DNA of 64,000 nucleotides, taken from positions 372,001-436,000 of the forward strand of contig JARBJD010000005.1 of assembly GCA_033064195.1 (NCBI GenBank), read 5' to 3'. Under the pieces are notes generated by a model that saw only the letters and a list, made by a program, of their open reading frames with translations, did not search any database and was not told where the DNA came from. This document shows positions 38,713-61,065 of this stretch, in pieces (within the stretch, counting starts at the first letter, position 1; each line of letters begins with the position of its first letter). Both the position numbers and the translations under genes were made by a program. Source of the stretch: Blattamonas nauphoetae (lineage: Eukaryota; Preaxostyla; Oxymonadida).

Positions 38713-41700
38713 ATGATCATCTTTTGTTTCCTTTCCACAACAATCATCCTCACAATAGCTTCGGGTGGGAAGGAAACAGAAAGCAGGTCCCTCCGCCTGT
38801 TCCTGGACGAGCACATCCAAAAATCGAACAACGATCATTATGAAGATAATGACATTATTCGTCTTCCAAACGGCAAATTCTCTTCATGTGGATACCCAGT
38901 GATTTCAAGGACGTTGAATGTGGAAGGAATGAAGACAGAAGTCCATATCTCTGTTGAACGGGACGTTCTCGAAACAGACACTCAAAATGGATTTGATTCG
39001 TCCAGTACTGGTGGTGATTCACTGCTGTCGATCTTCAGGATTCGAAATTCGACAGTTTCACTGTCATCACTTTGCCTGAACAGCGAGGCGCCCTCCTCTC
39101 TGATTGCGTCAGTCACATCGTCATTCGTGACAGTATCGGAGAGTGATATTCGCTCAAACGGGATGAACAGTCCGTTTGTGATGCTGGTCGGGAATGCGGA
39201 TGGACAATCACGTGATCTTGGAAGTTCTCTGCATCTCTCGAACTGTCGTCACATTTCGTCGTCCCTCGTGTCTCTTGTGCCTCTTGCCGAAATCTCTCGC
39301 AAGTCTGATCTCGCAGTGAATGCTAGAAAATCATGGACCAGATTTGAAGAAGCGCAATTTGTTGAAGAAATGAGGATATCAGCCTCGGAACTTGCGATCA
39401 GCGATTGTTGCCTGACATTTGGGACTGGCCCTCTGATTGGTTTTGGATGCGACAAAGACCAGTCAGAACTCAGTGGAGAACAAGCAGTCCTGCCTTGGAA
39501 GGTGTCGTCACAGCTGGTGAAAAGCCAGATCACGAACACGACGAGCAATCCATCGGATTGGATTGTGTGCGAAGGAGAACTAGAAAGGATGGAGTTGTCT
39601 CAGCGTTTGACGAGCAGCTGTGTTTGTCTGAGCACAAACCATCTTTATGGAACAGCGTGTGTTGACATGAATGCGAATGTGATGGGAAGTCTTCTGAGTC
39701 TGAACACATCGTTCTCGTCCTGCTTGACCGACGCTCCCACCCATCTCAACCAACACTTCAAAACCCAGCAAACTCCCACCCAATCTGCCTTCTTCAAACT
39801 GTGCACATTCAAAGACTGCTCCTCAACATCATCATATGGAGGCGCAATCAATTCCAGGGCAAAAGGCGCTCTTCTCGTTGAGGACTGTTCATTCCAGTTG
39901 TGCCAGTGCACTGGTACAGGATCTGGAGCCGGTGCCATTTTCTACGCACCGTCATGGACAATCTCTTTCATCGTTGTATCATCATCGTTCATTGGCTGCT
40001 CGAGCGCATACTATGGTGGCTCTATCGTTGTCTCGAGCTGTAAATCGTCGACATTGCTCAACTGTGTTTTCATCGACTCCAAGGCACTTTCGAATGGAGG
40101 GTCCGTCTATCTGCACAATTGGGATGCTCTCTCAACCTCTTCTTCGATCACAAATTGTCTTTTCGAGAACTGCCAGACAACACATTCATCCGCATCCAAC
40201 CCGTACAGCGGAGGGGCCCTGTATATCACCGAGGCTGTCAGTCTTCAGCTCAATTTTGTCAATTTTCGAGGAAACAAGGCAGGTGTCAAGGATGGCAATG
40301 ACATCATGTTTAGCAAGATCACTCCTTCTCGGATAACACCGGAGATGATGGTTGGTTGTACATCAACATCTAACTCTCCTCGCCAACAACTCTATCCTGC
40401 TGTCGGTACAGATGAACATCTAACAAATCCAACAACAACTGCCACACATGTTTCGTGGAATGCAACAGAAATTGATGCGAACACTGCCAAATTCACTCTG
40501 AAGATGAATGAGACCATCACGGGAACAGTTCTGGTGCTGATTGACAATTCTGGTGGGACAAGAACACCAACAAGCGGCCAGGCTCCAAACATTGGACGAG
40601 TTCTCTCTTTCTCACTCGATGACACCGACGAGAGTTCGTGTTCTGTTTCGCTTGGTGAGGATGGTCTCGTTCAAACACCACTCAAAGCTTATCAAGTGAT
40701 CACATCGTCATTTGTCGGAAGTTTCATTCTCTCAACCGACTGTGTTCTGGATGAAAGCGAGAAGAATGTGTTGATCACCATTTCTGGTCGGAACATCGCA
40801 TCAGGCATCCTCCATGTCACTCTCTCAGACAACACAGTCCTCAACTTTCAATTTAAACCACACCAAACGACATCTGAAGTGTTAAATGTCCCTCTTACTG
40901 TAGATTCGCCAATGTTGATATTTGGAAAGACATACAAAATTGTCAGTGCTCGATCACCAACCCAATCTCACAACCCAATCACCCTCCCTTACGATGTTGA
41001 AATCATCGTCCCCAGTCCGCCTCGTCTGACAACACTCAAAGAATCAGTGTACGACGAAAAAAAGAAGACAGTGAGCATCGACTTGGAAGGAGTTAATCTT
41101 GACGGAACTTACAAAGTGACACTGTCAGTGAATGACACTGAGACAATGACGTTTGATGTAGTGTTCAGTTCGTCAAAATTCCAGTTTCAAGGAATCCTGT
41201 TCGACACAGAAACACCAACGAAGGTGAACATGTCATACAACACTCGATATGAGATTGTCGGAATGAAGCAAGGTGAGGAGAACGTGTTGTGTTTGGGAGA
41301 CCTTTCATTCACAACGATGGCTGAGCCAACTCGTCTTGTGACGATGGAATGTGAATTCGATAAAGCGAAGAAGAATGTTTTGATTCAGATTTTTGGACGA
41401 GAATTGGAGACAACATCGACATACAAAGTTGGACTGAGCATTTCTGGGACTCTGAAGCACACTGTTTCCATGACATTCAACAGCTCTTCAGAATTGTGGG
41501 AAGGGTCAGCGTTGTTGTATCCATCAAGTTCGGCTCAGCTGGGATATGGAAAGACATATTCAGTGAGCTCGTTCCAGAAAGGAGGCAACACAACTGAGCT
41601 GTTCTTCGAAGCAAACTCGATCGAAATAACTCCGGAGCCGCAACGATTGGTGAAGGTTGAGTCCATCAATGCAGATGGATTGAACTCGACGACTCTCACT

Positions 41701-44700
41701 CTCTCATCTCTCGCACTGGCACATGGAGCAAAATACGCACTCGAACTGAAAGGCACGCCTCTTGACTCGTCTTCGAATTCTGCTCACGTGGTTCCTTTGT
41801 CGTTCACAGCCACTTCGCAGTCAACGCACTCCTTCACTCTCTCACTCTATCCGACTGATGAAGCCAAGTTGAAATATGGCCACAGCTATTCAGTGGATTG
41901 GATGAAGACTGGAGACACCTCAACCATCATCGAGACTGATGCCTGCACCTTCTCCACATCCGTCTTGCCAGAACGGCTTGTGAAGATTTCGTGTGATGAA
42001 AAATTCTCCGACTCGAAGAAGAAAACGATCACTGTCACTTTCGAATCGCTGGGCTTGAAATCGTTGACAGAATACTCGATTGTTTTCAAGTCAACAACCA
42101 CTGCTGAAGTGCTCTCTCACACGAAGAAACTCAAATTGAAGACCGACGCAAATGGACTCCTGCCTTCTCACACGGCAGTTCTGTTTCCGACAAAGACAGA
42201 TACAGATGAACGAGATGGACAGCTGGAGTTTGGGTTGACATACTCCGTGGATGGGTTCAAACGAGGAGAGGAGACTCTTCTCTATGACACTGAACACATC
42301 ACGCTGACGACACCTCTCGAACCAGCTCGTTTGACTGGTGTTTCGTACACTGGATCGACAGACAAGGAGAAGAAGGCGACACTTACAGTGATGGGAAGGA
42401 AGATGAGTACTGATGAGACATACACACTCACATTGAAAGTGAAGGACAAGACAAGCAACTCTCAACCGACAGTTAATGTGAGCTTCACAACAGCTGAAAG
42501 TGGAACTGGATCAGCTGTGCTCTTCTCGACAACATCGTCCGAGATCCAACTGAACTACAACACATCATACGAAGTGATCGGAGTGACTGACTCTGCCACA
42601 TCACCAATTCTCTTCGAGGATGGACTGACATTCACAACGATTGTTGAGCCAACTCGTCTTGTGACGATGGAATGTGGATACGATGAATCGAAGAAGACTG
42701 CTTTGATTCGGATGACGGGCCAAGTTTTGGATACAACGAAGGAATACGAGATTGAGCTGAACGATTCTGAAAACTTGAAGAAAACGATTGAAATGACGTT
42801 CAACACGACATCATCAAAATGGGAAGGTTCAGCGATTCTGTACTCGCTCTCTGAACCAGTGGAGCTGGAATATGGGAAAACATACTTCGTGAGTGGATTC
42901 AAGACGAAAGGGGAGACATCACCGCATCTTTATGAAGACCTCTCAATCACGATTGAGAACGAACCCAGCCGAGTTGAGGAGGTGTCGCGGATGCTGAATG
43001 GAAAGAAGACAACGATGATCATTTCTTTGTCAGGCCGAGAATTGAAGAATGGGATGGGAAAGCTTGGAGTTTGTCGAGGGAATTCGAAATGGACATCAGA
43101 GATTGGGATCGTTCTTGCTTCAGACGGAAAATGGAAAACAGAATTTCGGGTCGACTTCTCCGAAAGCTCGACTGTTCTTGAGTATGGGTCGACATACACG
43201 CTGTGTGGATTGGATGGGAGTGCTTTCTTCGTGAACGAAGGAATCTCAATCACTGTTCCTCACGCACCAGTCGTGAGCTCGATGATCCCGGAATTGAACG
43301 CAGACACTCACAGAGCGTTCCGTGTTGTGATGTCTGGATCTGATTTGCCGACCGCAGGCTCTTACACAGCTTCATTCTCTGACAATCTTGGATCATTTGA
43401 CATTTCGTTGTCAGAATTGTCAGAATGGAGATCGGACTGGATTGAGGTTACAAAGACAAGCGCGTTCGAGTTCAACAAGACATGCACACTGGCATCTCTG
43501 ATTGATTCGTCTTCTGGATCTGCTGAACATATCTTGTGTTCTGGAGTGACGATGAAAACACCTCTCGGACCGACTCTGACTGGATTTGGAGGAGTGTCTC
43601 TGACAGGTTCTTCGCTTGATTGTGTGTCGATTGTTGTGAATGTTGCTCGAATTGTTGCTGACACATTCGAAGTTTCAGGGTTGGATGTTGATGATGCTTC
43701 GAAAGTGCTGATCCCATTGATCGTCTCTTTCTCGTCATGTGATTCGACGGAAGGAGCGATGACACACTCTGTGAGTTGGGACTCTGCGTTGCAATATGGT
43801 CATCGCTACGAAATTGCTTTGATGTCGAGTTCGACAATGGCTGTCTCAATTCCGTCAAAACTCGTCTTCGAAGTTCCTATAATATCGTCATTTGACAACG
43901 TCTTACTCTCTCACAACTCCATCAACACCTTCATCCGCGTCCAATTCTCTGGAAACGGCTTTCTTGGCCAATATTCAGTGACACTCAATTCAGGTTTCTC
44001 GTTTGTCGTCGCCGCTCAATCAGACACATCCGCTGTCTCTGAAGAAATCGCACTGGGATGGCCAGACAGCCTCACATTCGATACTCCCTTCACCGTCCAA
44101 TCAGTTATCTCCACGATTCCAGATTCAGTCGTCCTCTTGAAGAACATGCTGACATTCACAACACCTCCGAAACCAGATCCTCTGTCTCTGTTTGTGGATA
44201 GGCGAACAGGCGTGACAAGTCAGTTTTGTGGAGAATCATCTCGTCCCTGTTCTTCTGTGGAAGTTGCTTGGGAGATTATTTCTCAACTTGGAGTTCCGAC
44301 ACCAACAGTTGGGATTGTTCACTCGGCGACACTTGGATCACCGATTCGGATTTCGAATGGGATGGTTGCACTTCTTTCGAGTTCTGGAAATGTTGACCCG
44401 AAACTTCGAATTCCATTATCTGCTCGTGAGAATGATGAATCTGGGATGATTGTTGTGTCGTCATCGACACTACAGATTCGAGATGTTGAAATTGTGATGG
44501 ACACTCTCTCTCCTTCGTTCGTCCTCCTGTTTGCTGAGAACTCGAACCTGACGCTGAAAGAAGGTTCATTCGTTGGACCACAGTCAACACCCCCTTCAAA
44601 CGAAGAGACAAGTGCAAATCTTTGCGACTGGACGAGTGGGATTCTTCAGCTGGACAACTGCAACACTTCGATCATTTTCACAGTTCTCGCCAACCTCTCC

Positions 44701-46293
44701 TTTGGAGCTGTGAACATGAAAGCAGGGTCTTTGAAAGTGGAAACAAGTTCATTCCATGACAATTCACCGAACATAACTTCGTTTACTTCGCTTCGCAGAA
44801 ACATTCACTGCTCGAATGGCGGACACATCGAAATTGGGAGTCTGAATGGAGGGGATGGAATTGGGGACAAGATGGGATGGTTCTCTCGCTCTGATTGCAC
44901 TCTGTCGGGAGACGGTGTGGACATCGAAACAGCATTTTTTGCCCCAAAACTCAACACCAATGAATCAACGACGACGTACACAAAGAAAACGAACACGTTC
45001 GAAGTTGAGATTGTTGGATCAGTTTTGATTCCGTGTGGTCTGTTCCTTGAAGTCTTCGAAACAACAAAAGACAAGAAAGAAGCAGACTTCGTTCAGTTCG
45101 AACTGAGTCTGGACTCAACACAATCATTCACTGAAAAGAACATCAAACTTGCCATCTCACAAGCGGAGTTAAAGAAACTGAATTCTGAACTTGAATGGCG
45201 TGGCCGACTTGTGTTTGGAGAATCTCATCGAACAGTGGAGACGATTCTGATTCAGAAGAACATTTCTGAACGCCGATCGGAAGCAACTCTGAACAACATG
45301 AAATGGTGGCTTCCTGTTGTGATTGTTGTATCGTTAATTCTTCTTCTCGTCGTGATTGTGATTGTTTGTTTCCGCCGTCGAAAGAACGGGAAAGAGGCAG
45401 GAGCAACGACATCACTGACCGAGATGGAAGAACAGGAAGACAATGTTGAGAAGATCGCAGTTAATGTTGAAGATGAGCACAATCTTGCTCTGATTCGAAC
45501 AACACGAGAAGAACAACACCAGCAAGAATCGATGAAAGAAGCACCAGGTCAAGGAGAATCGACAAAGAAGGATGGGAATGAGGATGAGATGAAGTTGGAG
45601 GAGATTGAAGCGGTTGTGTGTGATAGGGAAGTGAAAGTGGAAGTTGTTGGGAAGCGCGAGACGCTGTTCGAGCGACTTCATGGTCAGAACAAGAAAAAAG
45701 TGGATGCGATTGTTGTGTGTCGAGCACTGATCAAAGGACTTGTGACAGCTGGAAAGGACGAACGACTGAATGGAGTGCTTCTGACATTGTCGCCTCACAC
45801 AATCATTGTTGACTCTTCGAATCGAATCTGCGTTGTCACTCCATCTGAAGCGAAGGGGAAAGTAGGTACGGAGTTGGGGAAGGAAATGAATGGATCAGTT
45901 GTGGAGGGAGAAGAGCGCTGGCGAGCGCCTGAGCAAGGAAATGTGAAGATTGAAGCTGGGATGGGATCTGAGAAAGTGTCGGTTTTTCGGCTTGGCCTGT
46001 TGCTGCTGGAAATGTGGACGGGTCGAATACCGTTTGGCGAGACAGATGGAGTGAATGCGTCTCGGCAGCTGGGGATGGGGATTCTGCCGCCTTTGGAAGG
46101 GATGTCGAGTGAGATGGAAGAGATTGTTCGGAGATGTCTGTCTGTTGATTTCCAGGATCGTCCTCGTCTTACTGAAGTGGACGAGCTTCTTCAGAGTTTG
46201 AGTCAGAAAGATGATCGGAAAGTGGAAAGAGTCGAAGAAATGAAGAAACTGAATCTGGCAGAAATGCTGGGAACGCAGTCACTGGTTTCATGA
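38713..46293 (+). CDS. Receptor-like beta-helix protein with kinase-like cytoplasmic domain, copy 1 (2526 aa)
   Basis: I start at the ATG at 38713 (MIIFCFLSTTIILTIASGG, a signal peptide). The frame extends 12 codons further only through a TTG. Order of parts: an N-terminal beta-rich region; a Pmp-like beta-helix with GGAI/GGAL and FRGN motifs (about residues 360-530); eleven repeats of about 110 residues (about 665-1817) with PxRL...K at the start of many and LEYGKTY-like ends; a second beta-helix opened by FCGESSRPCSSVEVAW; one membrane span (about 2197-2221, WWLPVVIVVSLILLLVVIVI) followed by FRRRK; and a protein-kinase-like domain (about 2310-2500). The last keeps RWRAPEQ (APE) and FRLGLLLLEMWTG but has LSPHTIIVDS where HRDxKxxN should be and no DFG or Gly loop, so it is a pseudokinase. 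No introns. Confidence 0.85.
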   Translation: MIIFCFLSTTIILTIASGGKETESRSLRLFLDEHIQKSNNDHYEDNDIIRLPNGKFSSCGYPVISRTLNVEGMKTEVHISVERDVLETDTQNGFDSSSTGGDSLLSIFRIRNSTVSLSSLCLNSEAPSSLIASVTSSFVTVSESDIRSNGMNSPFVMLVGNADGQSRDLGSSLHLSNCRHISSSLVSLVPLAEISRKSDLAVNARKSWTRFEEAQFVEEMRISASELAISDCCLTFGTGPLIGFGCDKDQSELSGEQAVLPWKVSSQLVKSQITNTTSNPSDWIVCEGELERMELSQRLTSSCVCLSTNHLYGTACVDMNANVMGSLLSLNTSFSSCLTDAPTHLNQHFKTQQTPTQSAFFKLCTFKDCSSTSSYGGAINSRAKGALLVEDCSFQLCQCTGTGSGAGAIFYAPSWTISFIVVSSSFIGCSSAYYGGSIVVSSCKSSTLLNCVFIDSKALSNGGSVYLHNWDALSTSSSITNCLFENCQTTHSSASNPYSGGALYITEAVSLQLNFVNFRGNKAGVKDGNDIMFSKITPSRITPEMMVGCTSTSNSPRQQLYPAVGTDEHLTNPTTTATHVSWNATEIDANTAKFTLKMNETITGTVLVLIDNSGGTRTPTSGQAPNIGRVLSFSLDDTDESSCSVSLGEDGLVQTPLKAYQVITSSFVGSFILSTDCVLDESEKNVLITISGRNIASGILHVTLSDNTVLNFQFKPHQTTSEVLNVPLTVDSPMLIFGKTYKIVSARSPTQSHNPITLPYDVEIIVPSPPRLTTLKESVYDEKKKTVSIDLEGVNLDGTYKVTLSVNDTETMTFDVVFSSSKFQFQGILFDTETPTKVNMSYNTRYEIVGMKQGEENVLCLGDLSFTTMAEPTRLVTMECEFDKAKKNVLIQIFGRELETTSTYKVGLSISGTLKHTVSMTFNSSSELWEGSALLYPSSSAQLGYGKTYSVSSFQKGGNTTELFFEANSIEITPEPQRLVKVESINADGLNSTTLTLSSLALAHGAKYALELKGTPLDSSSNSAHVVPLSFTATSQSTHSFTLSLYPTDEAKLKYGHSYSVDWMKTGDTSTIIETDACTFSTSVLPERLVKISCDEKFSDSKKKTITVTFESLGLKSLTEYSIVFKSTTTAEVLSHTKKLKLKTDANGLLPSHTAVLFPTKTDTDERDGQLEFGLTYSVDGFKRGEETLLYDTEHITLTTPLEPARLTGVSYTGSTDKEKKATLTVMGRKMSTDETYTLTLKVKDKTSNSQPTVNVSFTTAESGTGSAVLFSTTSSEIQLNYNTSYEVIGVTDSATSPILFEDGLTFTTIVEPTRLVTMECGYDESKKTALIRMTGQVLDTTKEYEIELNDSENLKKTIEMTFNTTSSKWEGSAILYSLSEPVELEYGKTYFVSGFKTKGETSPHLYEDLSITIENEPSRVEEVSRMLNGKKTTMIISLSGRELKNGMGKLGVCRGNSKWTSEIGIVLASDGKWKTEFRVDFSESSTVLEYGSTYTLCGLDGSAFFVNEGISITVPHAPVVSSMIPELNADTHRAFRVVMSGSDLPTAGSYTASFSDNLGSFDISLSELSEWRSDWIEVTKTSAFEFNKTCTLASLIDSSSGSAEHILCSGVTMKTPLGPTLTGFGGVSLTGSSLDCVSIVVNVARIVADTFEVSGLDVDDASKVLIPLIVSFSSCDSTEGAMTHSVSWDSALQYGHRYEIALMSSSTMAVSIPSKLVFEVPIISSFDNVLLSHNSINTFIRVQFSGNGFLGQYSVTLNSGFSFVVAAQSDTSAVSEEIALGWPDSLTFDTPFTVQSVISTIPDSVVLLKNMLTFTTPPKPDPLSLFVDRRTGVTSQFCGESSRPCSSVEVAWEIISQLGVPTPTVGIVHSATLGSPIRISNGMVALLSSSGNVDPKLRIPLSARENDESGMIVVSSSTLQIRDVEIVMDTLSPSFVLLFAENSNLTLKEGSFVGPQSTPPSNEETSANLCDWTSGILQLDNCNTSIIFTVLANLSFGAVNMKAGSLKVETSSFHDNSPNITSFTSLRRNIHCSNGGHIEIGSLNGGDGIGDKMGWFSRSDCTLSGDGVDIETAFFAPKLNTNESTTTYTKKTNTFEVEIVGSVLIPCGLFLEVFETTKDKKEADFVQFELSLDSTQSFTEKNIKLAISQAELKKLNSELEWRGRLVFGESHRTVETILIQKNISERRSEATLNNMKWWLPVVIVVSLILLLVVIVIVCFRRRKNGKEAGATTSLTEMEEQEDNVEKIAVNVEDEHNLALIRTTREEQHQQESMKEAPGQGESTKKDGNEDEMKLEEIEAVVCDREVKVEVVGKRETLFERLHGQNKKKVDAIVVCRALIKGLVTAGKDERLNGVLLTLSPHTIIVDSSNRICVVTPSEAKGKVGTELGKEMNGSVVEGEERWRAPEQGNVKIEAGMGSEKVSVFRLGLLLLEMWTGRIPFGETDGVNASRQLGMGILPPLEGMSSEMEEIVRRCLSVDFQDRPRLTEVDELLQSLSQKDDRKVERVEEMKKLNLAEMLGTQSLVS

Positions 46294-46667
46294 GGATCTC
46301 TTGTCAGTTCTCTTCCCAAAGTTCGTCCATTAATCAACGAACATGATCACCAACGTACCATTCGTGCCACAGCTGCCCTTTCCAGCTCTATTTCTGTCAA
46401 ATCATACAATTTTGACATGCGTATGGTCATTCTTTCGTTTTATTGTTCTGAAGCTTAGTCTTCAGAGCTGACTTCTTTTGCCTTTTTTTTAAAACCTTGT
46501 TTTCTTTCTGTTGTCGACATTTCCTGTCAATTGTTTGCGTCTCTATGCAAATTCCAATTGACAAACAAATAACTTGTTTGTCAGTTGCTCCAGTTTCCTT
46601 CACTCAACTCACATCTCTTCCAGAACATCATTCACACCCCTCTGCTTCGTCTTGGTTTGATCACCTA
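46294..46667 (+). repeat. 3' flank of receptor copy 1, shared with copy 2
   Basis: This stretch is nearly identical to 54245-54612 after copy 2, with a few substitutions, and more distantly similar to 61066-61440 after copy 3. It ends at the TA target of the Tc1/mariner-like element. No gene is seen in it. Confidence 0.85.
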
Positions 46668-47788: not shown

Positions 47789-47989
47789 TATCTTCAGTCG
47801 GTCGAAATTGACTCAATTGTTGGCCGTTCTGTTTCCGTTTTTGGAGATTGATCCTTCTATCTCCATCCGATAAGTCATTGTGATCATTTATTCCCTAAAG
47901 TTCGAAAAATAAATACCTATCCTCAAACAGATTTAGAATGATCCAAATAATGGTTGGATCCAATCTGCTGGAAACTCAAAGATCTCAAC

Positions 47990-50900
47990 ATGATCATCTT
48001 TTGTTTCCTTTCCACAACAATCACACTCACCATAGCTTCGAGTGGGAAGGAAACAGAAAGCAGATCCCTCCACCTGTTCCTGGACGAGCAGTACCAAAAA
48101 TCGAGCAACGATAATTGGAAAGAGGATCACATTCGTCATCTTCCAAACGGCAAATTCTCTTCGTGTGGGTACTCAGTGATCTCAAGGACGTTGAATGTGG
48201 AGGGAATGAAGACTGAACTGCATATCTCAGTTGAAAGGCACGCTTTCGAAACTGAATCTCAAAATGGATTTGATTTGTCAAGTGCTGATGACCATTCATT
48301 GCTGTCGATCTTCAGGATTCGAAATTCGACAGTTTCACTGTCATCACTTTGCCTTAACAGCGAAGAACCCTCCTCTCTGATCGCGTCAGTTTCATCGTCA
48401 TTTGTGACCGTGTCGGAGAGTGATATTCGCTCAAACGGGGTGAACTCTCCGTTTGTGATATTGGGAGGGATGGTGGATGGACAGTCACATGATATTGGAA
48501 GTTCTCTGCATCTCTCGAAATGTCGTCACATTTCGTCGTCCCTCGTGTCTCTTGTGCCTCTTGCAGACGTCTCTCGCAAGTCGGATCAACATATGAATGC
48601 TAGAAAATCATGGACAACGAATGAAGAAGCGCAATTTGTTGAAGAAATGAGGATATCAGCCTCGGAACTTGCGATCAGCGATTATTGCCTGACATTTGGG
48701 ACTGGCCCTCTGATTGGTTTTGGATGCGGCAAAGAACAGACCAAACTCAGTGGAGAACAAGCAGTTCTGCCTCTGAAAGTATCTACGCAGCTGATGAAGA
48801 GCCAGATCATGAACACGACGAGCAAACCATCAAACGTGAAAGTGGACGAAGCGGAAACGATGGAGTTGACTCAGCGTGTGACGAGCAGCCGTGTTTGTCT
48901 GAGCACGAACCATCTTTATGGAACAGCGTGTGTTGACATGAATGCGAATGTGATGGGAAGTCTTCTGAATCTGAACACGTCGTTCTCATCCTGCTTGACC
49001 GACACTCCAACCCATCTCGGCCAACACTTCACCGACCGACAAGAACTCGCCTAATCTGCTTTCTTCAAACTGTGCACATTCAAAGACTGCATCTCTTACT
49101 CATCCGAGGGTGGTATGATCTTTCTCAACGAGAAAGGCTCCCTTCTCATCGAAGAGTGTTCGTTCAAGGCATGTCGAACTCCAAGTTCGACATCTTTTGG
49201 AGGCGCCATTTTCTTCAGCGCTTCGACCGGAGCGACATTCAAAGCGAAGTCGTCGTCGTTTGTTGGATGCTCGGCTGGAATGGGTGCTGGATCACTGTAT
49301 CTCCACGGACAGTCATTGACATTGGTCAATTGTGTTTTCATCGACTCCAAGACAGACTCGTATGGAGGATCCACTTTTTTCCAGTTATGGGACGCTGTCT
49401 CGACATCATCCTCGATCACAAATTGTCTCTTTGAGAACTGCAGCACAACAGCAACCTCCGGATCCAACCCGTTCAGCGGTGGCGCACTGTACATCACCGA
49501 GGCTGTCAGTAGTCAGCTCAATTTTGTCAATTTTCGAGGAAACAAAGCAACAAACAATCCTGGTAATGACATCTTGTTCGCAATAATCCCTGCATCTCTG
49601 ATTACATCTGAGACGATGGTTGGTTGTTCGTCAACATCTGACTCTCCTCGAATGCGAGTGTTTGAAGTAGCAACAGGCACAGATGATCATCTTCCCGATC
49701 CAACTCCGATGGTCACACATGTTTCATTCCAAGCAGCAGCACTTGATGCAGACACTGCCGAATTCACTCTGAAGGTGAGTGAGACGATCACGGGAACAGT
49801 TCTGGTGCTGATTGACAATTCTGGTGGGACAAGAACACCAACAAGCGGCCAGGCACCGAACATTGGACGAATCCTCTCTTTCTCACTCGATGACACAGAT
49901 GAAAGTTCGTGTTCAGTTTCACTTGGTGAGAGTGGGCTCGTTCAAACACCACTCAAAGCTTATCAAGTGATCACATCGTCATTTGTCGGAAGTTTCATTC
50001 TCTCAACCGACTGTGTTCTGGATGAAAGCGAGAAGAATGCGTTGATCACCATTTCTGGTTCTGGGGTCCCTTCAGGCATCCTCTCTGTGACTCTCTCTGA
50101 CAATACAGTCCTCAAATTTGAATTTCGACCAAAACAGACAACATCTGAAGTGTTGACTGTCCCTCTGACTGAGACTTCGCCAAAATTGGGATATGGAGAG
50201 ACATACAAAATTGTTAGTGCTCGATCACAAACCCAATCTCGAAACCCCATCAACGTGCCTTTCCTCATCGAAATCGTCGTCCCCAATCCGCCTCGTCTGA
50301 CGACACTCAATGACCCGGGATATGACCCAAAACAGAAGACAGTAAGCATCAGCCTCGAAGGAGTGAATCTTGAAGGAATTCATGCAGTGAAACTCTTGGC
50401 GAATGGAACAGAGACGATAACGATTGATATTTTATTCAGTTCGTCAAAAGGAAAACTTGGAGGAGTCCTGTTCGACACCGACACCCCAAAGAACGTGAAC
50501 ACGTCGTACAACACTCGATATGAGATCGTCGAGATGAAGAAAGATGATGTGAATGTGTTGTGTTTGGGAAGCCTTTCATTCAAGACGATTGTTGAGCCGA
50601 CTCGTCTTGTGACGATGGAATGTGAATACGATGAAGCGAAGAAGAACATTTTGATTTGGATGACGGGCCAAGTTTTAGATACAACGAAGGAATACGAGAT
50701 TGAGCTGAACGATTCTGAAAACTTGAAGAAAACGATTGAAATGACGTTCAACACGACATCATCAAAATGGGAAGGTTCAGCGATTCTGTACTCGCTCTCT
50801 GAACCAGTGGAGCTGGAATATGGGAAAACATACTTCGTGAGTGGATTCAAGACGAAAGGGGAGACATCACCGCATCTTTATGAAGACCTCTCAATCACGA

Positions 50901-53900
50901 TTGAGAACGAACCAACCAGAATTGAAGAGGTGTCGCGCATGCTGGATGGAAAGAAAACGAAGATGATTGTTTCCTTATCTGGGCGAGAATTGAAGAGTGG
51001 GATGGGAAAGATTGGAGTGTGTCGAGGGAGTTCCAAATGGACATCAGAGACTGAGATCGTTTTTGATTCCGATGGGAACTGGAAAACAGAATTTCGGGTC
51101 GACTTCTCCGAAAGCTCGACTGTTCTTGAATATGGGTCGACATACACACTGTGTGGATTGGATGGGAGTGCGTTCTTTGTGAACGAAGGAATCTCAGTCA
51201 CTGTTCCTCACGCACCAGTCGTGAGCTCGATGATCCCGGAATTGAACTCAGACACGCACTCTTCATTTCGTGTTGTGATGTCTGGATCTGATTTGCCAAC
51301 AGCCGGCTCTTACACAGCTTCATTCTCTGACAATCTTGGAACGTTTAACATTTCGTTCTCAGAGTCGACAGGGTGGTGTTCGGACTGGATTTCTGTTTCG
51401 ACAACAAGCCCGTTCGAGTTCAACAAGACATACACGCTGACATCACTGATTGATTCGTCTTCTGGGACTGCTGATCATCTGTTGTGTTCTGGAGTGACGA
51501 TGAAAACACCTCTCGGACCGACTCTGACTGGATTGGGAGGAGTGTCTCTGACAGGTTCTTCGCTTGATTGTGTGTCGATTGTTGTGAGTGTTGCTCGAAT
51601 TGTTGCCGACACATTCGAAGTTTCAGTGTTCGATGTTGATGATGCTTCGAAAGTGCTGATCCCATTGTCGATCTCTTTCTCGTCATGTGATTCGACGGAA
51701 GGAGTGATGACACGCTCTGTGAGCTGGGACTCTGCGCTGCAGTATGGTCATCGCTACGAAATTGCTTCGATGTCGAGTTCAAATGTGGTTGTCTCGATTC
51801 CGTTAAAACACGTCTTCGAAATCCCCGAGCCGCCGTCATTTTCCAACATCTCGATAACAACCAACTCCATCGACACCTTCCTCCGCATCCAATAGTCTGG
51901 AAATGGTCTCATTGGGAACTATGAAGTGACGCTCACTTCTGGCTTCTCGTTTACCGTCACCGCTCAATCCGACACATCAGCCATTTCTGAAGAAATGGCT
52001 CTTGGATGGTCAGACACACTCGCATTCGACACTCTCTTCACCATCCAATCAATAATCTCCACAAACCCTGATATGGACGTCGTTTTGAATGGCACACTTT
52101 CATTCACAACTCCTCCGAAACAAGATTCTCTGTCTCTGTTTGTGGATGGGCGAACAGGCGAGACAAGTCGATTTTGTGGAGAATCATCTCGTCCCTGTTT
52201 GTCTGTGGAAATTGCTTGGGATATTGTTTCTCAACTGAGAGTTCGGACACCAACAGTTGGGATTGTTCACTCGGCGACACTTGTTTCACCGATTCGGATT
52301 GAGAATGGGATTGTCGCGCTTCTTTCGAGTTTTGGAAATGTTGACCCGAAACTTCGAATTCCATCATCAGCTCGTGAGAATGATGAGCCTGGAATAATTG
52401 TTGTGTCGTCATCGACACTACAGATTCGAGATGTTGAGATTCTGATTGACTCTCTCTCTCCTACGTTCGTGCTCCTTTCTGCACTGAACTCGAACCTGAC
52501 ACTGAAAGAAGGTTCATTCGTTGGACCACAATCATCGCCTTCTTCAAACGATGAGTTGTCTGAAGAGATTTGCAACTGGACAAATGGGATTCTTCAGCTA
52601 AACAACTGCACCACTTCGATTTCCGACACGAAACTAAACCATCTCTCCTTTGGAGCAGTGAACATGAAAGCAGGGTCTTTGAAAGTGGAAACAAGTTCGT
52701 TTCATGACAATTCACCGAATCTGTCATCTTTTGCATCACTCCGTCGAAACATCCACTGCTCGAATGGCGGACACATCGAAATTGGGAGTCTGAGTGGAGG
52801 GGATGGCGTTGGGGACAGGATGGGATGGTTCTCTCGCTCTGATTGCACTCTGTCTGGAGATGGCGTGGACATCGAAACAGCGTTTTTCGCTCCTACACTC
52901 AACACCAATGAGTCAAAGACGACATTCAAAAAGAAATCGAACACGTACGAAGTTGTGATTATCGGATCAGTTTTGATTCCGTGTGGTCTGTTCTTGGAAG
53001 TGTTCGAGAAGACGAAAGACAAGAAAGATGGAAATTACAACCAGTTCGAGCTGAATCTGGACTCGACACAATCATTCACTGAAAAGCACATCAAACTTGC
53101 CATCTCTCAAGCGGACTTGAAGAAACTAAATCCTGAACTTGAATGGAGAGGACGACTTGTTTTTGGAGAATCTCATCGAACAGTGGAGACGATTCTGATT
53201 CAGAAAAGCATTTCTGATCGTCGATCTGAAGCGACTCTGAACAACATGAAATGGTGGCTTCCTGTTGTGATTGTTGCTTCGTGTGTTCTTCTTCTTGTTG
53301 TCGTGATTGTGGTTGTTTGCCTTCGTCGTCGAAAGACCGAGAAACAGGCAGGAGCTGCGACGTCATTGACAGAGATGGAAGAACAGGAAGACAATGTTGA
53401 GAAGATCGCAGTTGATGTTGACGATGAGCACAACCTTGCTCTGATTCGAACAACACGAGAAGAACAATATCAACAAGAATCGATGAAAGAAGCACCAGGT
53501 CAAGGAGAATCGACAAAGAAGGATGGGAATGAGGATGAGATGAAGTTGGAGGAGATTGAGGCAGTTGTGTGTGATGGAGAAGTGAAAGTGGAAGTTGTTG
53601 GGAAGCGCGAGACGCTGTTTGAGCGACTTCATGGTCGGAACAGGAAAGAAGTTGATGCGATTGTTGTGTGTCGAGCACTGATCAAAGGACTTGTGACAGC
53701 TGGAAAGGACGAACGACTGAATGGAGCGCTTCTGACATTGTCGCCTCACACAATCATTGTTGACTCTTCGAATCGAATCTGCGTTGTCACTCCATCTGAA
53801 GCGAAGAAAAAAGTGCGAACGGAGTTGGGGAAGGAAATAACTGGATCAGTTGTGGAGGGAGAAGAGCGCTGGCGAGCGCCTGAGCAAGGAAATGTGAAGA

Positions 53901-54244
53901 TTGAAGCTGGGATGGGATCAGAGAAAGTGTCGGTTTTTCGGCTTGGCCTGTTGCTGCTGGAAATGTGGACGGGTCGAATACCGTTTGGCGAGACAGATGG
54001 AGTGAATGCGTCTCGGCAGCTGGGGATGGGGATTCTGCCGCCTTTGGAAGGGATGTCGAGTGAGATGGAAGAGATTGTTCGGAGATGTCTGTCTGTTGAT
54101 TTCCAGGATCGTCCTCGTCTTACTGAAGTGGACGAGCTTCTTCAGAGTTTGAGTCAGAAAGATGATCGGAAAGTGGAAAGAGTCGAAGAAATGAAGAAAC
54201 CGAATCTGGCAGAAATGCTGGGAACGCAGTCACTGGTTTCATGA
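47990..54244 (+). pseudogene. Receptor-like beta-helix/kinase-like protein, copy 2, interrupted by two in-frame stops
   Basis: The same architecture as its neighbours lies in one continuous frame from the ATG at 47990 (MIIFCFLSTTITLTIASSG) to TGA. TAA at 49052-49054 stands where copies 1 and 3 have CAA. TAG at 51893-51895 stands where they have TTC and CTG. Seven of the 110-residue repeats are present, as in copy 3. The membrane span (WWLPVVIVASCVLLLVVVIV) and pseudokinase domain are intact, and the last few hundred bases are almost the same as in copy 1. TAA and TAG both act as normal stops in other genes here, so recoding is unlikely. The rest of the frame is undamaged over 6 kb, which implies recent inactivation, readthrough or assembly error. 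Confidence 0.8.
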
Positions 54245-54816: not shown

Positions 54817-57800
54817 ATGATCATCTTTTGTTTCCTTTCCACAACACTCGCACTCACCATAGCTTCGAGTGGGAAGGAAACAGAAAGCAGATCTCTCAGA
54901 TTCTTTCTGGACGAGCAGACCCAGATATCGAACAACGATAATTGGAAAGAGAATCACATTCTTCGTCTTCCAAACGGCGAATTCTCTTCATGTGGATACC
55001 CAGTGATTTCAAGGACGTTGACACTGGAAGGAATGAAGACAGAAGTCCATATCTCTGTTGAACAGAACGCTCACGAAACTGAAACAGAAAATGGAATTGA
55101 TTCGTCCAGTGCTGTTGACCATTCACTGATATCGATCTTCAGGATTCGAAATTCGACAGTTTCACTGTCATCACTTTGCCTGAACAGCGACCAACCCTCC
55201 TCTCTGATCGCGTCAGTTTCATCGTCATCTGTGACAGTGTCAGACAGTGACATTCGCTCAAACGGGGCCAACTCTCCGTTTGTGATGCTGGTCGGGAAGG
55301 CGAATGGGCAATCAGGTGATATTGGAAGTTCTCTGCATCTCTCGAAATGTAGTCACATTTCGTCGTCCCTCGTGTCTCTTGTCCCTCTTACCGAAATCTC
55401 TCACAAGTTGGATCAACATATGAATGCTAGAAAACCGTGGGAAACGAATGAAAACTCGCAATTTGTTGAAGAAATGAGGATATCAGCCTCGGAACTTGCC
55501 ATCAGAGATTCATGCCTGACATTTGGGACTGGCCCTCTGATTGGTTTTGGATACGACAAAGACAATACAGAACTCGGTGGAGAACAAGCAGTCCTGCCTC
55601 GGAAGGTCTCATCATCGCTGATGAAGAGCCAGATCATGAACACGACGAGCAATCCATCAGGTTTGATTGTGGACGAAGCGGAAACGATGGAATTGACTCA
55701 GCGTGTGATGAGCAGCTGTGTTTGTCTGAGCACGAACCATCTTTATGGAACAGCGTGTGTTGACATGAATGCGAATGTGATGGGAAGTCTTCTGAGTCTA
55801 AACACATCGTTCTCGTCCTGCTTGACCGACACTGCAACCCATCTCGGCCAACACTTCGTAACCCAACAATACCTCACCCAATCTGCCTCCTTCAAATTGT
55901 GCACATTCAAAGAGTGCTCCACGTTGTCTTATGGTGCTGCGATCTATCTCAGAGACAACGGCTCGCTTGTTGTCGAAGAATGTTCATTCAAGGCATGCAT
56001 CACCACAAGTTCGACATCTGCTGGAGGCGCCCTTTATTTTATAGCGTCAACAGGAGCCACTTTCAAAGCCAACTCATCATCGTTTGTTGGATGCTCGGCT
56101 GGAATCGGTGGTGGTACACTTTGTCACGATGGACCATCAGCGATAGTCCTCAACTGTGTTTTTATCGACTCCACCTCCAAGACGACTGGAGGATGCATAT
56201 CTCTGCACAGTTGGGATGCTCTCTCAACCTCTTCTTCGATCACAAATTGTCTCTTCGAGAACTGCAAGACAACACATACATCTGTATCCAACCCGTACAG
56301 CGGAGGGGCAATTTATGCCGTCCAGGTTATCAGTCTTCAGCTCAATTTTCTCAATTTTCGAGGAAACACGGCAGGTGTCAAGGATGGCAATGACATCATG
56401 TTTGCCCTCCTGAATACTTTGATCACATCTGAGACGATGGTTGGCTGTACGTCAACATCTGCCTCTCCTCGACTACGAGTCTATCCTGATGTCGGTACAG
56501 ATGAACATCTCCCAAATCCAACAACAACTGCTTCCCTTGTTTCGTGTGAGGCAACAGCAATTCATTCAGATGCTGTCGAATTCACTCTGAAGATGAGTGA
56601 GACGATCACGGGAACAGTTCTGGTGCTGATTGACAATTCTGATGGGACAAGAACACCAACCGATGTCCAGGCACCGAACATTGGACGAGTGCTCTCTTTC
56701 TCATTCGATAACACAGACGAAGGTTCGTGTTCTGTTTCGCTTGGTGAGAGTGGGCTCGTTCAAACACCCCTCTCAGCTTATTCCATCATCAGGTCTTCCA
56801 TTGTTGGAAGCTACATTACCTCATCCGAATGTGTACTGGACGAAAACGAGGAGAATGCGTTGATCACTGTTTCTGGTTATGGAATTCCATCTGGCGTCCT
56901 CTCTGTCACTCTCTCGGACAATACTCTCCTCAATTTTGAATTTCTACCAGGTCAGAAAGTGTCCGAAGTGCTGGCTGTCCCTCTGAATGTAGCTTTGCCC
57001 AAATTGAGATACGGAGGGAGCTATCCCATTCATCGTCTGAGGTCGAAAAGCCAGACAAATCACCCCATCACCGTGCCTTTCCTCATCGAAATCATTGTCC
57101 CCAATCCCTCTCGTTTGACAACACTCAAATTCCCGGGATATGATTCAAAACTGAAGAAAGTGAGCATCAACCTGGAAGGTGTGAATCTTGAAGGAACTCA
57201 CAAAGTGACATTCTCTGTGAATGAAACCTCAGAGACGATAACGATTGATGTGTTGTTCAGTTCGTCAAAAGGAAAACTAGAAGGGATCCTGTTCGACACC
57301 GACACACCAACAAACGTGAACATGTCATACAACACTCGATATGAGATCGTTGAGATGAAGAAAGATGATGTGAATGTGTTGTGTTTGGGAAACCTTTCAT
57401 TCAAGACGATTGTTGAGCCGACTCGTCTTGTGACGATGGAATGTGCGTACGATGAAGCGAAGAAGAATGCGTTGATTCGGATGACAGGCCAAGTTTTGGA
57501 TACAACGAAGGAATACGAGATTGAGCTGAACGATTCTGAAAACTCAAAGAAGACGATTGAAATAACATTCAACACGACATCATCAAAATGGGAAGGATCA
57601 GCGATTCTGTATTCGCTCGATGAATCAGTTGAGCTGGAATATGGGAAGACATACTCCGTGCGTGGATTCAAGACGAAAGGTTCCACATCAAAGTATCTTT
57701 ATGAAGACGTCACAGTCATGATTGAGAACGAACCCAGCCGAATTGAAGAGGTGTCGCGGATGCTGGATGGAGAGAAGACGAGGATGATTGTTTCTTTGTC

Positions 57801-60800
57801 AGGCCGAGAATTGAAGAGTGGGATGGGAAAGATTGGAGTTTGTCGAGGGACTTCGAAATGGACATCCGACACTGAGATCATTTCTGGTTCAGATGAGAAG
57901 TGGAAGGCCACCTTTCTGGTCGGTTTTTCAGAAAGCTCGACTGTTCTTGAATATGGGTCGACATACACGCTGTGTGGATTGGATGGGAGTGCGTTCTTTG
58001 TGAACGAAGGAATCTCATTTGTCGTTCCTCATCCACCAATTGTGAGCTCGATCATCTCGGAATTGAACACAAGCACACACTCTTCATTCCGTGTTGTGAT
58101 GTCTGGATCTGATTTGCCAGCGTCAGGGTCTTTCTCTGCTTCGTTCTCTGACAGTCTTGGAACATTTGACATTTCGTTGTCAGAATTGTCAGAATGGAGA
58201 TCGGACTGGATTGAGGTTACAAAGACAAGCGCGTTCGAGTTCAACAAGACATACACGCTGACATCACTGATTGATTCGTCTTCTGGGACTGCTGATCATC
58301 TGTTGTGTTCTGGAGTGACGATGAAAACACCTCTCGGACCGACTCTGACTGGATTGGGAGGAGTGTCTCTAACAGGTGCTTCGCTTGATTGTGTGTCGAT
58401 TGTTGTGCGTGTTGCTCGAATTGTTGCCGATACATTCGAAGTTTCAGTGTTCGATGTTGATGATTCTTCGAAAGTGCTGATCCCGTTGTCCGTCTCTTTC
58501 TCGTCGTGCGATTCGCCAGATGGATTAATGACACACTCTGTGAGCTGGGACTCTGCGCTGCAATATGGTCATCGCTACGAAATTGCTTCGATGTCGAGTT
58601 CGACGATGGTTGTCTCAATTCCATCCCAACTCGTCTTCGAAATCCCTGAACTGTTGTCATTTGACAACATCTCGATAACAACCAACTCCATCCACACTTT
58701 CCTCCGCATCCTACTGTCTGGAAATGGTCTCATTGGGAAAAATGAAGTGACGCTCACTTCTGGCTTCTCGTTTACCGTCACCGCTCAATCCAACACATCA
58801 GCCATTTCTGAAGAACTCGCAATTGGATGGTCAGACAGTCTCGCATTCGAAACTTCATTCACTGTGAAAACCGCATTCTCTATAGATCCACCAGATGCAG
58901 TCATCGTCTTGAAGAATTCGTTGGCATTCACAACTCCTCCAAAACAAGATCCCCTGTCGCTATTTGTGGATGGTCGAACAGGCGAGACAAGTCGATTTTG
59001 TGGAGAATCATCTCGTCCTTGCTCGTCTGTGGAAGTTGCTTGGGAGATTGTTTCTCAGATTGGAGTTCGGACACCAACAGTTGGGATTGTTCACTCGGCG
59101 ACACTTGGTTCACCGATTCGGATTTCGAATGGGATGGTTGCGCTTCTTTCGAGTTTTGGAAATGTTGACCCGAAACTGTCCATTCCCTTATCTGCTTGTA
59201 ACCAAGTGGAATCTGGGATGATTGTTGTGTCGTCATCGACACTTCAGATTCGAGATGTTGAGATTATGATTGACTCTCTCTCTCCTTCGTTCGTGCTGCT
59301 TTCTGCTCAAAACTCGAACTTGACACTGAAAGAAGGTTCATTCGTTGGACCACAATTATCACCTTCTTCAAATGATGAGTTGTCTGAAGAGATCTGTGAA
59401 TGGACGAGTGGGGTTCTTCAGCTGGACAACTGCATCACTTCGATCTCCGACACAAAACTGAACCATCTCTCCCTTGGAGCTGTGAATGTGAAGAATGGAA
59501 GCCTGAAAGTGGAAACAAGTTCATTCCACGACAACTCACCGAACATTGCTTCGTTTTCTTCGCATCGCAGAAACATCCACTGCTCGAATGGCGGACACAT
59601 CGAAATTGGGAGTCTGAGTGGAGGGGATGGTGTTGGGGACAGGATGGGATGGTTCTCTCGCTCTGATTGCACACTGTCTGGTGATGGTGTTGATATCAAA
59701 ACAGCGTTTTTCGCTCCAACACTCAGCACCGATGAGTCCAAGACTACATTCACAAAGAAGTCAAAGCAGTTTGAAGTGGAGATTATCGGAGCAGTTTTAA
59801 TTCCCTGTGGTCTGTTCTTGGAAGTGTTTGAGAAGACGAAAGACAAGGAAGATGGAAACCACATCAAGTTCGAGCTGAATCTGGACTCAACACAATCATT
59901 CACTGAAAAGAACATCAAATTTGCCATCTTACAAGCAGACTTGAAGAAACTGAATCCTGAACTTGAATGGCGTGGACGACTCGAGTTTGGAGATGGACAG
60001 AAAACAGTGGAGACGATTCTGATTCAGAAGAGCATTTCTGAACGTCGATCGGAAGCGACTCTGAACAACATGAAATGGTGGCTTCCTGTTGTGATTGTTG
60101 TATCGATCATTCTTCTCGTTGTCGTGATGATGGTTGTTTGCCTCCGCCGTCGAAAGAACGGGAAAGAGGCAGGACCAACGACATCACTGACAGAAATGGA
60201 AGAACAGGAAGAAAATGTTGAGAAGATCGCAGTTGATGTTGAAGATGAGCACAACCTTGCTCTGATTCGAACGACACGAGAAGAACAATACCAACAAGAA
60301 TCGATGAAGGAAGTGCCAGGTCAAGGAGAATCGACAAAGAAGGATGGGAAAGATGATGAGATGAAATTGGAGGAGATTGAAGCAGTTGTGTGTGATGGAG
60401 AAGTGAAAGTGGAAGTTGTTGGGAAGTGCGAGACGCTGTTCGAACGACTTCATGGTCGGAACAGGAAAGAAGTTGATGCGATTGTTGTGTGTCGAGCACT
60501 GATCAAAGGACTTGTGACAGCTGGAAAAGACGAAAGATTGAATGGAGCGCTTCTGACTTTATCACCTCACACAATCATTGTTGACTCATCGAATCGGATC
60601 TGCATTGTCACTCCATCTGAAGTGAAGGGAAAAGTGCGAACGGAGTTGGGGAAGGAAATAACTGGATCAGTTGTGGAGGGAGAAGAGCGCTGGCGAGCGC
60701 CTGAGCAAGGAAATGGGAAGATTGAAGTTGGGATGGGATCAGAGAAAGTGTCGGTTTTTCGGCTTGGCCTGTTGCTGCTGGAAATGTGGACGGGTCGAAT

Positions 60801-61065
60801 ACCGTTTGGCGAGACTGATGGAGTGAATGCGTCTCGTCAGCTGGGGATGGGGATTCTGCCGCCTTTGGAAGGGATGTCGAGTGAGATGGAAGAGATTGTT
60901 CGGAGATGTCTGTCTGTTGATTTCCAGGATCGTCCTCGTCTTTTGGAAATGGACGAGCTTATTCAGAGTTTGAGCACGAAAGATGATCGGAAAGTGGAAA
61001 GAGGAGAAGTAAAGAAGAAACCGAATCTGACAGAGATGCTGGGAATGCATTCGCTGGTTTCCTGA
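54817..61065 (+). CDS. Receptor-like beta-helix protein with kinase-like cytoplasmic domain, copy 3 (2082 aa)
   Basis: ATG at 54817 (MIIFCFLSTTLALTIASSG, signal peptide), ending in TGA. It is complete and uninterrupted. The domains are as in copy 1: Pmp-like beta-helix (GGALYFIASTG, GGAIYAVQ, FRGNTAG), seven repeats of about 110 residues (about 655-1373), a second beta-helix opened by FCGESSRPCSSVEVAW, a membrane span near 1752-1777 (WWLPVVIVVSIILLVVVMMV), and a pseudokinase domain (about 1871-2056) with RWRAPEQ and FRLGLLLLEMWTG but no HRD or DFG. The 444-residue difference from copy 1 equals four repeat units. The extracellular domain would face outside and the kinase-like domain inside, suggesting a sensing or adhesion receptor whose signal is passed by partners. 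The function is inferred. Confidence 0.88.
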   Translation: MIIFCFLSTTLALTIASSGKETESRSLRFFLDEQTQISNNDNWKENHILRLPNGEFSSCGYPVISRTLTLEGMKTEVHISVEQNAHETETENGIDSSSAVDHSLISIFRIRNSTVSLSSLCLNSDQPSSLIASVSSSSVTVSDSDIRSNGANSPFVMLVGKANGQSGDIGSSLHLSKCSHISSSLVSLVPLTEISHKLDQHMNARKPWETNENSQFVEEMRISASELAIRDSCLTFGTGPLIGFGYDKDNTELGGEQAVLPRKVSSSLMKSQIMNTTSNPSGLIVDEAETMELTQRVMSSCVCLSTNHLYGTACVDMNANVMGSLLSLNTSFSSCLTDTATHLGQHFVTQQYLTQSASFKLCTFKECSTLSYGAAIYLRDNGSLVVEECSFKACITTSSTSAGGALYFIASTGATFKANSSSFVGCSAGIGGGTLCHDGPSAIVLNCVFIDSTSKTTGGCISLHSWDALSTSSSITNCLFENCKTTHTSVSNPYSGGAIYAVQVISLQLNFLNFRGNTAGVKDGNDIMFALLNTLITSETMVGCTSTSASPRLRVYPDVGTDEHLPNPTTTASLVSCEATAIHSDAVEFTLKMSETITGTVLVLIDNSDGTRTPTDVQAPNIGRVLSFSFDNTDEGSCSVSLGESGLVQTPLSAYSIIRSSIVGSYITSSECVLDENEENALITVSGYGIPSGVLSVTLSDNTLLNFEFLPGQKVSEVLAVPLNVALPKLRYGGSYPIHRLRSKSQTNHPITVPFLIEIIVPNPSRLTTLKFPGYDSKLKKVSINLEGVNLEGTHKVTFSVNETSETITIDVLFSSSKGKLEGILFDTDTPTNVNMSYNTRYEIVEMKKDDVNVLCLGNLSFKTIVEPTRLVTMECAYDEAKKNALIRMTGQVLDTTKEYEIELNDSENSKKTIEITFNTTSSKWEGSAILYSLDESVELEYGKTYSVRGFKTKGSTSKYLYEDVTVMIENEPSRIEEVSRMLDGEKTRMIVSLSGRELKSGMGKIGVCRGTSKWTSDTEIISGSDEKWKATFLVGFSESSTVLEYGSTYTLCGLDGSAFFVNEGISFVVPHPPIVSSIISELNTSTHSSFRVVMSGSDLPASGSFSASFSDSLGTFDISLSELSEWRSDWIEVTKTSAFEFNKTYTLTSLIDSSSGTADHLLCSGVTMKTPLGPTLTGLGGVSLTGASLDCVSIVVRVARIVADTFEVSVFDVDDSSKVLIPLSVSFSSCDSPDGLMTHSVSWDSALQYGHRYEIASMSSSTMVVSIPSQLVFEIPELLSFDNISITTNSIHTFLRILLSGNGLIGKNEVTLTSGFSFTVTAQSNTSAISEELAIGWSDSLAFETSFTVKTAFSIDPPDAVIVLKNSLAFTTPPKQDPLSLFVDGRTGETSRFCGESSRPCSSVEVAWEIVSQIGVRTPTVGIVHSATLGSPIRISNGMVALLSSFGNVDPKLSIPLSACNQVESGMIVVSSSTLQIRDVEIMIDSLSPSFVLLSAQNSNLTLKEGSFVGPQLSPSSNDELSEEICEWTSGVLQLDNCITSISDTKLNHLSLGAVNVKNGSLKVETSSFHDNSPNIASFSSHRRNIHCSNGGHIEIGSLSGGDGVGDRMGWFSRSDCTLSGDGVDIKTAFFAPTLSTDESKTTFTKKSKQFEVEIIGAVLIPCGLFLEVFEKTKDKEDGNHIKFELNLDSTQSFTEKNIKFAILQADLKKLNPELEWRGRLEFGDGQKTVETILIQKSISERRSEATLNNMKWWLPVVIVVSIILLVVVMMVVCLRRRKNGKEAGPTTSLTEMEEQEENVEKIAVDVEDEHNLALIRTTREEQYQQESMKEVPGQGESTKKDGKDDEMKLEEIEAVVCDGEVKVEVVGKCETLFERLHGRNRKEVDAIVVCRALIKGLVTAGKDERLNGALLTLSPHTIIVDSSNRICIVTPSEVKGKVRTELGKEITGSVVEGEERWRAPEQGNGKIEVGMGSEKVSVFRLGLLLLEMWTGRIPFGETDGVNASRQLGMGILPPLEGMSSEMEEIVRRCLSVDFQDRPRLLEMDELIQSLSTKDDRKVERGEVKKKPNLTEMLGMHSLVS

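Follow-up and report, generated by a model that had tools for sequence, protein, structure and literature searches.

Giant receptor-like proteins of the oxymonad Blattamonas nauphoetae with a C-lobe-only pseudokinase as predicted cytoplasmic tail

Blattamonas nauphoetae is an oxymonad, i.e. a metamonad. The window analysed here, a 64,000-nt stretch of the searched genome assembly (88,311,006 bases; contig C445, positions 372001-436000), contains three tandem paralogues, copies A, B and C, all on the + strand. The evidence supports the conclusion that the tails of these giant receptor-like proteins are catalytically dead, kinase-derived domains, of which essentially the C-lobe alone remains. 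We give about an even chance to the reading in which the proteins are giant single-pass cell-surface receptors or adhesins whose C-lobe-only tail works as a non-catalytic docking platform. A tandem array of giant receptor-like genes had been proposed in a sequence-only reading of this DNA, and the three copies bear it out:

38713..46293, + strand: copy A, intact giant receptor-like gene, 2,526 aa, ATG at 38713, about 12 stalk repeats; equal in length to database protein P0008.
47990..54244, + strand: copy B, paralogue, one frame apart from two premature in-frame stops.
54817..61065, + strand: copy C, intact giant receptor-like gene, 2,082 aa, ATG at 54817; equal in length to database protein P0007.

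The C-lobe of the tails is homologous to the protein kinase superfamily in sequence and in fold. The Pfam kinase matches of copies A (E 6e-6) and C (E 3e-5) lie below the curated PF00069 cut-off, and PF00069 matches 65 of 66 tails. Comparison of the 66 tails with six ordinary kinases of the same genome by hhalign gave a probability of 99.2 (E 1.6e-19), the match starting at kinase column 78. Among the 50 rows listed from a viral structure library, those with names were kinases, bar one unnamed open reading frame; an NCBIfam search gave no useful name. The earlier placement of the C-terminal domain in the kinase family is thus confirmed by profile comparison. The features of the tails are:

45598..46230, + strand: copy A C-lobe-only pseudokinase domain, beta4 to helix I (Pfam, tail alignment; position carried over from the copy C model).
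53549..54181, + strand: copy B C-lobe-only pseudokinase domain (Pfam, tail alignment).
60370..61002, + strand: copy C C-lobe-only pseudokinase domain, beta4-beta5 and helices D to I (Pfam, hhalign, predicted model).
60550..60582, + strand: copy C stretch aligned to the catalytic loop, where LLTLSPHTIIV, with an invariant His, replaces HRDLKxxN.
60688..60705, + strand: copy C retained RWRAPE motif (tail alignment).

Most of the N-lobe has been lost. Strands 1-3 and helix C are absent, the Gly-loop, beta3 Lys and helix C that mark an N-lobe were not found, and only beta4-beta5 are left. In the proteins whose hmmscan coordinates were inspected, Pfam matches begin at profile positions 154-169, i.e. 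at 154 or later. Only two strands precede the helices in the predicted model of the copy C tail, with a low-confidence stretch upstream, and in this model the bilobal fold is not kept. A degenerate N-lobe in the juxtamembrane stretch was considered and is not supported; the VIA rows starting at model residues 66-72 (root-mean-square deviation 3.3-5.7) run through low-confidence residues. The sequence-only reading had described a kinase fold without HRD or DFG; the kinase homology and the missing motifs stand, whereas the whole fold does not.

The HRD and DFG motifs are missing from the tails compared. HRD is absent from the Blattamonas tails (0/66, 0/65 and 0/8) and from 122 tails of Monocercomonoides exilis (0/122), and the aligned HRD Asp, catalytic-loop Lys and catalytic-loop Asn are kept in 0/66 tails. 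DxG strings occur in 4/66 and 3/122 tails, in the linker or after WxAPE, and none is at the aligned DFG place. As kinase-derived domains without catalytic motifs, the tails are pseudokinases. A full kinase with misread catalytic residues was rejected, since HRD and DFG are absent by hhalign, alignment and motif scan. Less eroded members were sought at fetched loci, two of C590 (PF07714 matches from profile 59-61) and one of C168; all three lack HRD and DFG; with NPHN in the catalytic loop, they retain its Asn. C667, a fourth fetched place, also taken from the PF07714 list, proved to be a kinase-like protein of another and more ordinary type and was rejected as a family member. Separately, five very long open frames (3,834-4,411 codons) with a kinase domain matching most of PF07714 lie on contigs C5, C1, C68, C346 and C479.

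Eleven residues are invariant across the 66 tails. The APE motif is well kept, as had been noted earlier: R183, P187 and E188 are invariant in 66/66 tails, W184 is present in 65/66 and A186 in 59/66, and WKAPE or WMAPE is found in 121 of the 122 M. exilis tails. The His of the S/T-P/S-H motif is invariant in 66/66 Blattamonas tails, and the M. exilis consensus reads SPHIVLF. Conservation peaks over helices F to G (PFxExDAxNAxR), and positions 205-240 hold 18 of the 32 invariant or near-invariant residues. The polar residues of this stretch, E224, D226, N229 and R232, suggest that the conserved helix F-G may be a docking site for a common partner.

The tail is under purifying selection. When copy C was compared with copy A, the ratio of nonsynonymous to synonymous substitution rates (dN/dS) was 0.72 for the N-terminal part, 0.65 for the GGA module, 0.42 for the repeats, 0.35 for the second helix, 0.27 for the pre-membrane region, 0.33 for membrane plus linker, 0.31 for the pseudokinase and 0.49 for the last 17 residues. 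Over eight pairs, 23 of 24 values for the pre-membrane region, linker and pseudokinase fall at 0.26-0.47; the other is a linker value of 0.65. The outer modules evolve fastest (0.65-0.72). Positive selection outside is not supported by these region averages, none of which exceeds 1 between A and C. Tests for diversifying selection outside and purifying selection inside had been suggested as a check in the sequence-only reading; at the level of region averages, purifying selection is seen inside. In M. exilis the tails are far more alike than the ectodomains (median 0.73 vs 0.28), being higher in 7,235 of 7,381 pairs.

The topology of copies A and C supports their description as receptor-like, with a signal-like N-terminus, a predicted ectodomain, one span and a kinase-related tail. 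By hydropathy alone, the hydrophobic signal-like N-terminus reaches an 11-aa mean of 2.52 in A and 2.22 in C, and each copy has one strong span (19-aa mean 3.75 in A and 3.59 in C), with RRRK next. This agrees with the signal peptide and single span described earlier for the intact copies. In copy C the segments are placed as follows:

54817..54873, + strand: signal-peptide-like N-terminus (hydropathy; segment end judged by eye).
60088..60144, + strand: single transmembrane span, then RRRK (hydropathy).
60142..60357, + strand: juxtamembrane linker of about 72 residues, mostly with a predicted local distance difference test score (pLDDT) <50 in the model; the site where a kinase N-lobe would begin.

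The ectodomain appears to consist of two beta-helix-like modules on either side of a stalk. For copy C the features are:

54874..56490, + strand: N-terminal beta-helix-like module with GGA/FxxC motifs (short-strand pattern in the model for residues 368-569; motif counts; residues 32-367 assigned by eye only).
56524..58941, + strand: stalk of eight beta-sandwich (Ig/FnIII/TIG-like) repeats of about 100 aa each (model, repeat profile).
58942..59700, + strand: second beta-helix-like module with approximate boundaries (model strand pattern for the first part only; remainder read by eye).

The predicted model of copy C contains 8 beta-sandwich domains; since copy A is 444 aa longer, it probably has about 12 repeats. 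The repeat profile scored 9 repeats in A and 5 in C. Seven to eleven repeats had been claimed earlier. The N-terminal module had been called a GGAI/FxxN-type, Pmp-like beta-helix. GG[AST][ILVF] is enriched in copy A (its count was reached in 3/500 shuffles), whereas FxxN enrichment was not found there (54/500) and FxxC is enriched instead (0/500). Among seven proteins tested, FxxN is enriched in P0010 alone (2/500 shuffles). PF02415 had no genome-wide match at E 0.001, a weak test with a 19-position profile, and none at E 1 in a scan of A, C and all but the first of the three pieces of B. The right-handed beta-helix profile PF13229 matches the close paralogue P0009 with E 5e-5 and 23.4 bits, under the cut-off of 25.9; several relatives carry a precomputed PF13229 annotation, and the model strand pattern of copy C agrees with a beta-helix. 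The GGA-type motif thus stands and FxxN does not, which leaves the Pmp-like label weakly supported.

A genome-wide count of the family, suggested as a check in the sequence-only reading, gave at least 304 distinct loci on 171 contigs in three tail searches. The published genome is given as 88.5 Mb with 44.96% GC in the available text of its report (PMC10703272). The tail searches scored 130 of 1,217, 146 of 1,283 and 140 of 1,235 candidates, so 304 is a lower bound; Chapman estimates of family size were 307, 572 and 505. With the membrane-proximal outside as the query, 116 loci were found, 27 with a listed tail and 89 without. Eight of the 89 were fetched and all carry a whole or partial tail, three with an early end or altered frame; if the remaining 81 are alike, the lower bound becomes 393. 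A protein search with the copy C tail returned 68 proteins, 65 from Blattamonas (two encoded by the window) and 3 from M. exilis (best E 4.8e-7), and a third protein search, with another subfamily as the query, added 8. The search from one M. exilis relative gave at least 538 matches, of which the 120 listed are all from M. exilis with tails 68-93% identical to the query; 538 is not a gene count, since these are candidate matches and some represent two gene models of one gene (MONOS_886 twice).

Relatives were recovered in Blattamonas and Monocercomonoides; Streblomastix and Paratrimastix were outside the search. A tree of 109 rows was built from 73 Blattamonas tails (4 of 77 rows were dropped at the motif cut), 30 of the 122 M. 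exilis tails and the 6 ordinary kinases. In this midpoint-rooted tree, in which some long branches meet, all tails group together against the six kinases (100/99). The M. exilis tails form a single clade (100/99); the grouping of the Blattamonas tails is unresolved (54/63). The simplest reading is that the tails share an origin and would then have expanded separately in each genus. The Blattamonas repeat profile matched 0/122 M. exilis ectodomains.

Within the array, copies A and C are each one uninterrupted frame, and all three copies end in TGA. Copy B is interrupted by TAA at 49052-49054 and TAG at 51893-51895 and is otherwise open; its 6 gaps relative to C are all multiples of three, with no frameshift. 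An intron-bearing gene or recoded stops were considered for copy B and rejected; both stops lie inside one open frame. The paralogues, read by eye, have Q at one stop place and L or F at the other, a difference that disfavours recoding to a single residue. DNA identity over aligned pieces is 81-88% for A vs C and 86.5% for B vs C. The first 365 bp 3' of A and of B are 97% alike, so the array repeat unit includes downstream DNA. An extra 1.13 kb (46659-47788) lies between A and B and is absent between B and C. It has a GC content of 0.38 and no frame >151 aa, and occurs at 4 other genome places with 100% identity over nearly the full length and in 37 further matches 66-76% alike; it is probably a recently active, non-autonomous mobile element. 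At the two edges of the window, 107-865 (+) and 62579-63997 (-), lie weak DDE transposase-like and phage-integrase SAM-like matches, both under their curated cut-offs. Directly upstream of the array, 35259-38234 (+) is a 991-aa frame, P0006, without any Pfam match.

From these observations we infer ligand binding, partner docking by the tail and a signalling outcome. Outside, the two beta-helix-like modules would bracket the beta-sandwich stalk and do the binding; gut bacteria or the host surface are a guess at the ligand. Inside, a domain derived from a tyrosine kinase-like or tyrosine kinase (TKL/TK-like) ancestor and reduced to the C-lobe would work without catalysis as a docking platform. 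The helix F-G stretch and RWxAPE may recruit a partner common to the family, for instance an active kinase or an adaptor that links to the cytoskeleton or to endocytosis. It is plausible that the tail serves as a scaffold for active kinases, as proposed in the sequence-only reading.

Several observations weigh against this proposal. In Blattamonas the tail is barely better conserved than the ectodomain (median 0.29 vs 0.25; higher in 1,532 of 2,278 pairs among 68 proteins, a set that excludes five whose tails were odd or poorly delimited). Synonymous divergence (dS) between C and A is lower at the ends (0.17, and 0.15 in the tail) and reaches 0.33-0.45 in between, the pattern that gene conversion would give by homogenising the ends. 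The low tail dS suggests gene conversion, which can also make tails alike, and tail similarity is therefore weaker as evidence alone. The catalytic-loop Asn, kept in none of the 66 tails, is retained in some other subfamilies as TAHN and NPHN forms. Two members, P0070 (BLNAU_19342) and P0071 (BLNAU_20571), belong to the family by their membrane-proximal part and have a K/E-rich tail where other members have the half-kinase; loss or replacement of the tail is thus possible within the family. Among database proteins, a crude hydropathy test found a signal-like N-terminus in 25 of 68 from Blattamonas and 39 of 122 from M. exilis; the case for a surface location therefore leans chiefly on the span and on what copies A and C show. 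Two-lobed allosteric pseudokinases have a helix-C face to work through, a route closed to this tail, which lacks helix C and most of the N-lobe.

The main rival explanation, which we think possible if rather doubtful, is that these proteins form a variable coat or adhesin family at the cell surface, whose leftover C-lobe serves only for anchoring, trafficking or endocytosis and carries no signal. The fast-evolving outer modules and the different tails of P0070 and P0071 fit such a family, and trichomonad BspA and Pmp proteins can increase adhesion, many having C-terminal endocytic motifs in the available account (PMC6701047). Against it, a folded domain of about 200 aa with its invariant residues exceeds the needs of a sorting signal, and both genera have retained this type of tail. 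There is a slim chance that the C-lobe was kept for other chemistry or another ligand, with the invariant His in a new site; no companion catalytic residues were recognised around this His, which may be structural. It is very improbable that the tails are highly divergent yet active protein tyrosine kinases. The PF00069 matches, the Asn of some subfamilies and the 3 of 120 listed M. exilis records named as kinases point that way; the replaced Asp and Lys in 66/66 tails, the lack of HRD and of an aligned DxG in both genera, the late start of the Pfam matches, the two early-starting C590 loci that also lack HRD and DFG, and the approximately 72 residues from span to C-lobe stand against it. Decay of a family without present function, to which the stops of copy B and the early ends or altered frames at 3/8 sampled loci might point, is just as hard to credit given the long intact frames in A, C and many listed loci and the constrained dN/dS of the pre-membrane, linker and pseudokinase parts.

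The docking-platform reading can be set beside known systems. PTK7, KSR2, MLKL and ILK, pseudokinases matched in the PDB, resemble the tails in C-lobe sequence or fold and have known non-catalytic roles; to our knowledge all have both lobes, whereas the tails are essentially one. Trichomonad and chlamydial Pmp proteins carry GGA-type repeat motifs. Like the present family they form large families and occur in a metamonad, BspA and Pmp being large surface families of trichomonads in the accessible text (PMC6701047). They differ in that here FxxN is not enriched in six of seven proteins, PF02415 was not found and the tail is a pseudokinase. We know of no Giardia Nek kinase with a giant ectodomain. 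In the available text, these kinases form a massive lineage-specific family of another metamonad, mostly catalytically dead; they belong to a different kinase group and were found at the cytoskeleton or in the cytoplasm where tested (PMC3218828). In plants, the pair EFR-BAK1 is a precedent for signalling without catalysis, as a kinase-dead EFR can still enhance its partner kinase, and EFR likewise has an ectodomain, one span and a kinase-related tail; as described in the same partial text, EFR itself has kinase activity and a full kinase domain, with leucine-rich repeats on the outside, in contrast to the mostly missing N-lobe and the beta-helix-like and beta-sandwich exterior here (PMC11259431). 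Because the EFR domain is two-lobed, the precedent cannot be assumed for half-kinase tails.

The sequence-only reading knew of no described receptor class with this combination. No description of C-lobe-only receptor-like proteins or oxymonad pseudokinases was found in the literature searched, most subscription papers being outside it; to that extent the claim stands, and it is tempered by the probability that the M. exilis expansion is already known as kinases. Karnkowska 2019 is said to describe a tyrosine-kinase expansion in M. exilis. Three of the 120 listed relatives are named 'putative Protein tyrosine and serine/threonine kinase', and 'protein tyrosine kinases' are one of the largest gene families of M. 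exilis in the available part of one report (PMC8767320), so the oxymonad expansion has probably been noticed before, as kinases. From the three record names, the paper's 'tyrosine kinases' would be the same family as the tails described here. The two share giant proteins and related, C-lobe-type tails; they differ in that the M. exilis family is called kinases in the literature, its ectodomains are unmatched by the repeat profile and its expansion is separate.

Pseudokinases are usually understood as two-lobed switches. Somewhat more tentatively than for the window's own genes, it is proposed that a kinase C-lobe without most of the N-lobe and without catalysis is the common tail of one of the largest protein families of oxymonads. 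In such a receptor class, hundreds of variable exteriors would share a single half-kinase interior that serves docking alone. This tail would predate the genus split and have expanded separately afterwards, and the 'tyrosine kinases' of Monocercomonoides would largely not be kinases. If so, the hundreds of constrained C-lobe-only tails would offer a natural experiment on the abilities of an isolated C-lobe, and the interpretation of a gene family that ranks among the largest in mitochondrion-less eukaryotes would be corrected. The family would also help to show how these symbionts of the gut perceive bacteria and host surfaces or attach to them.

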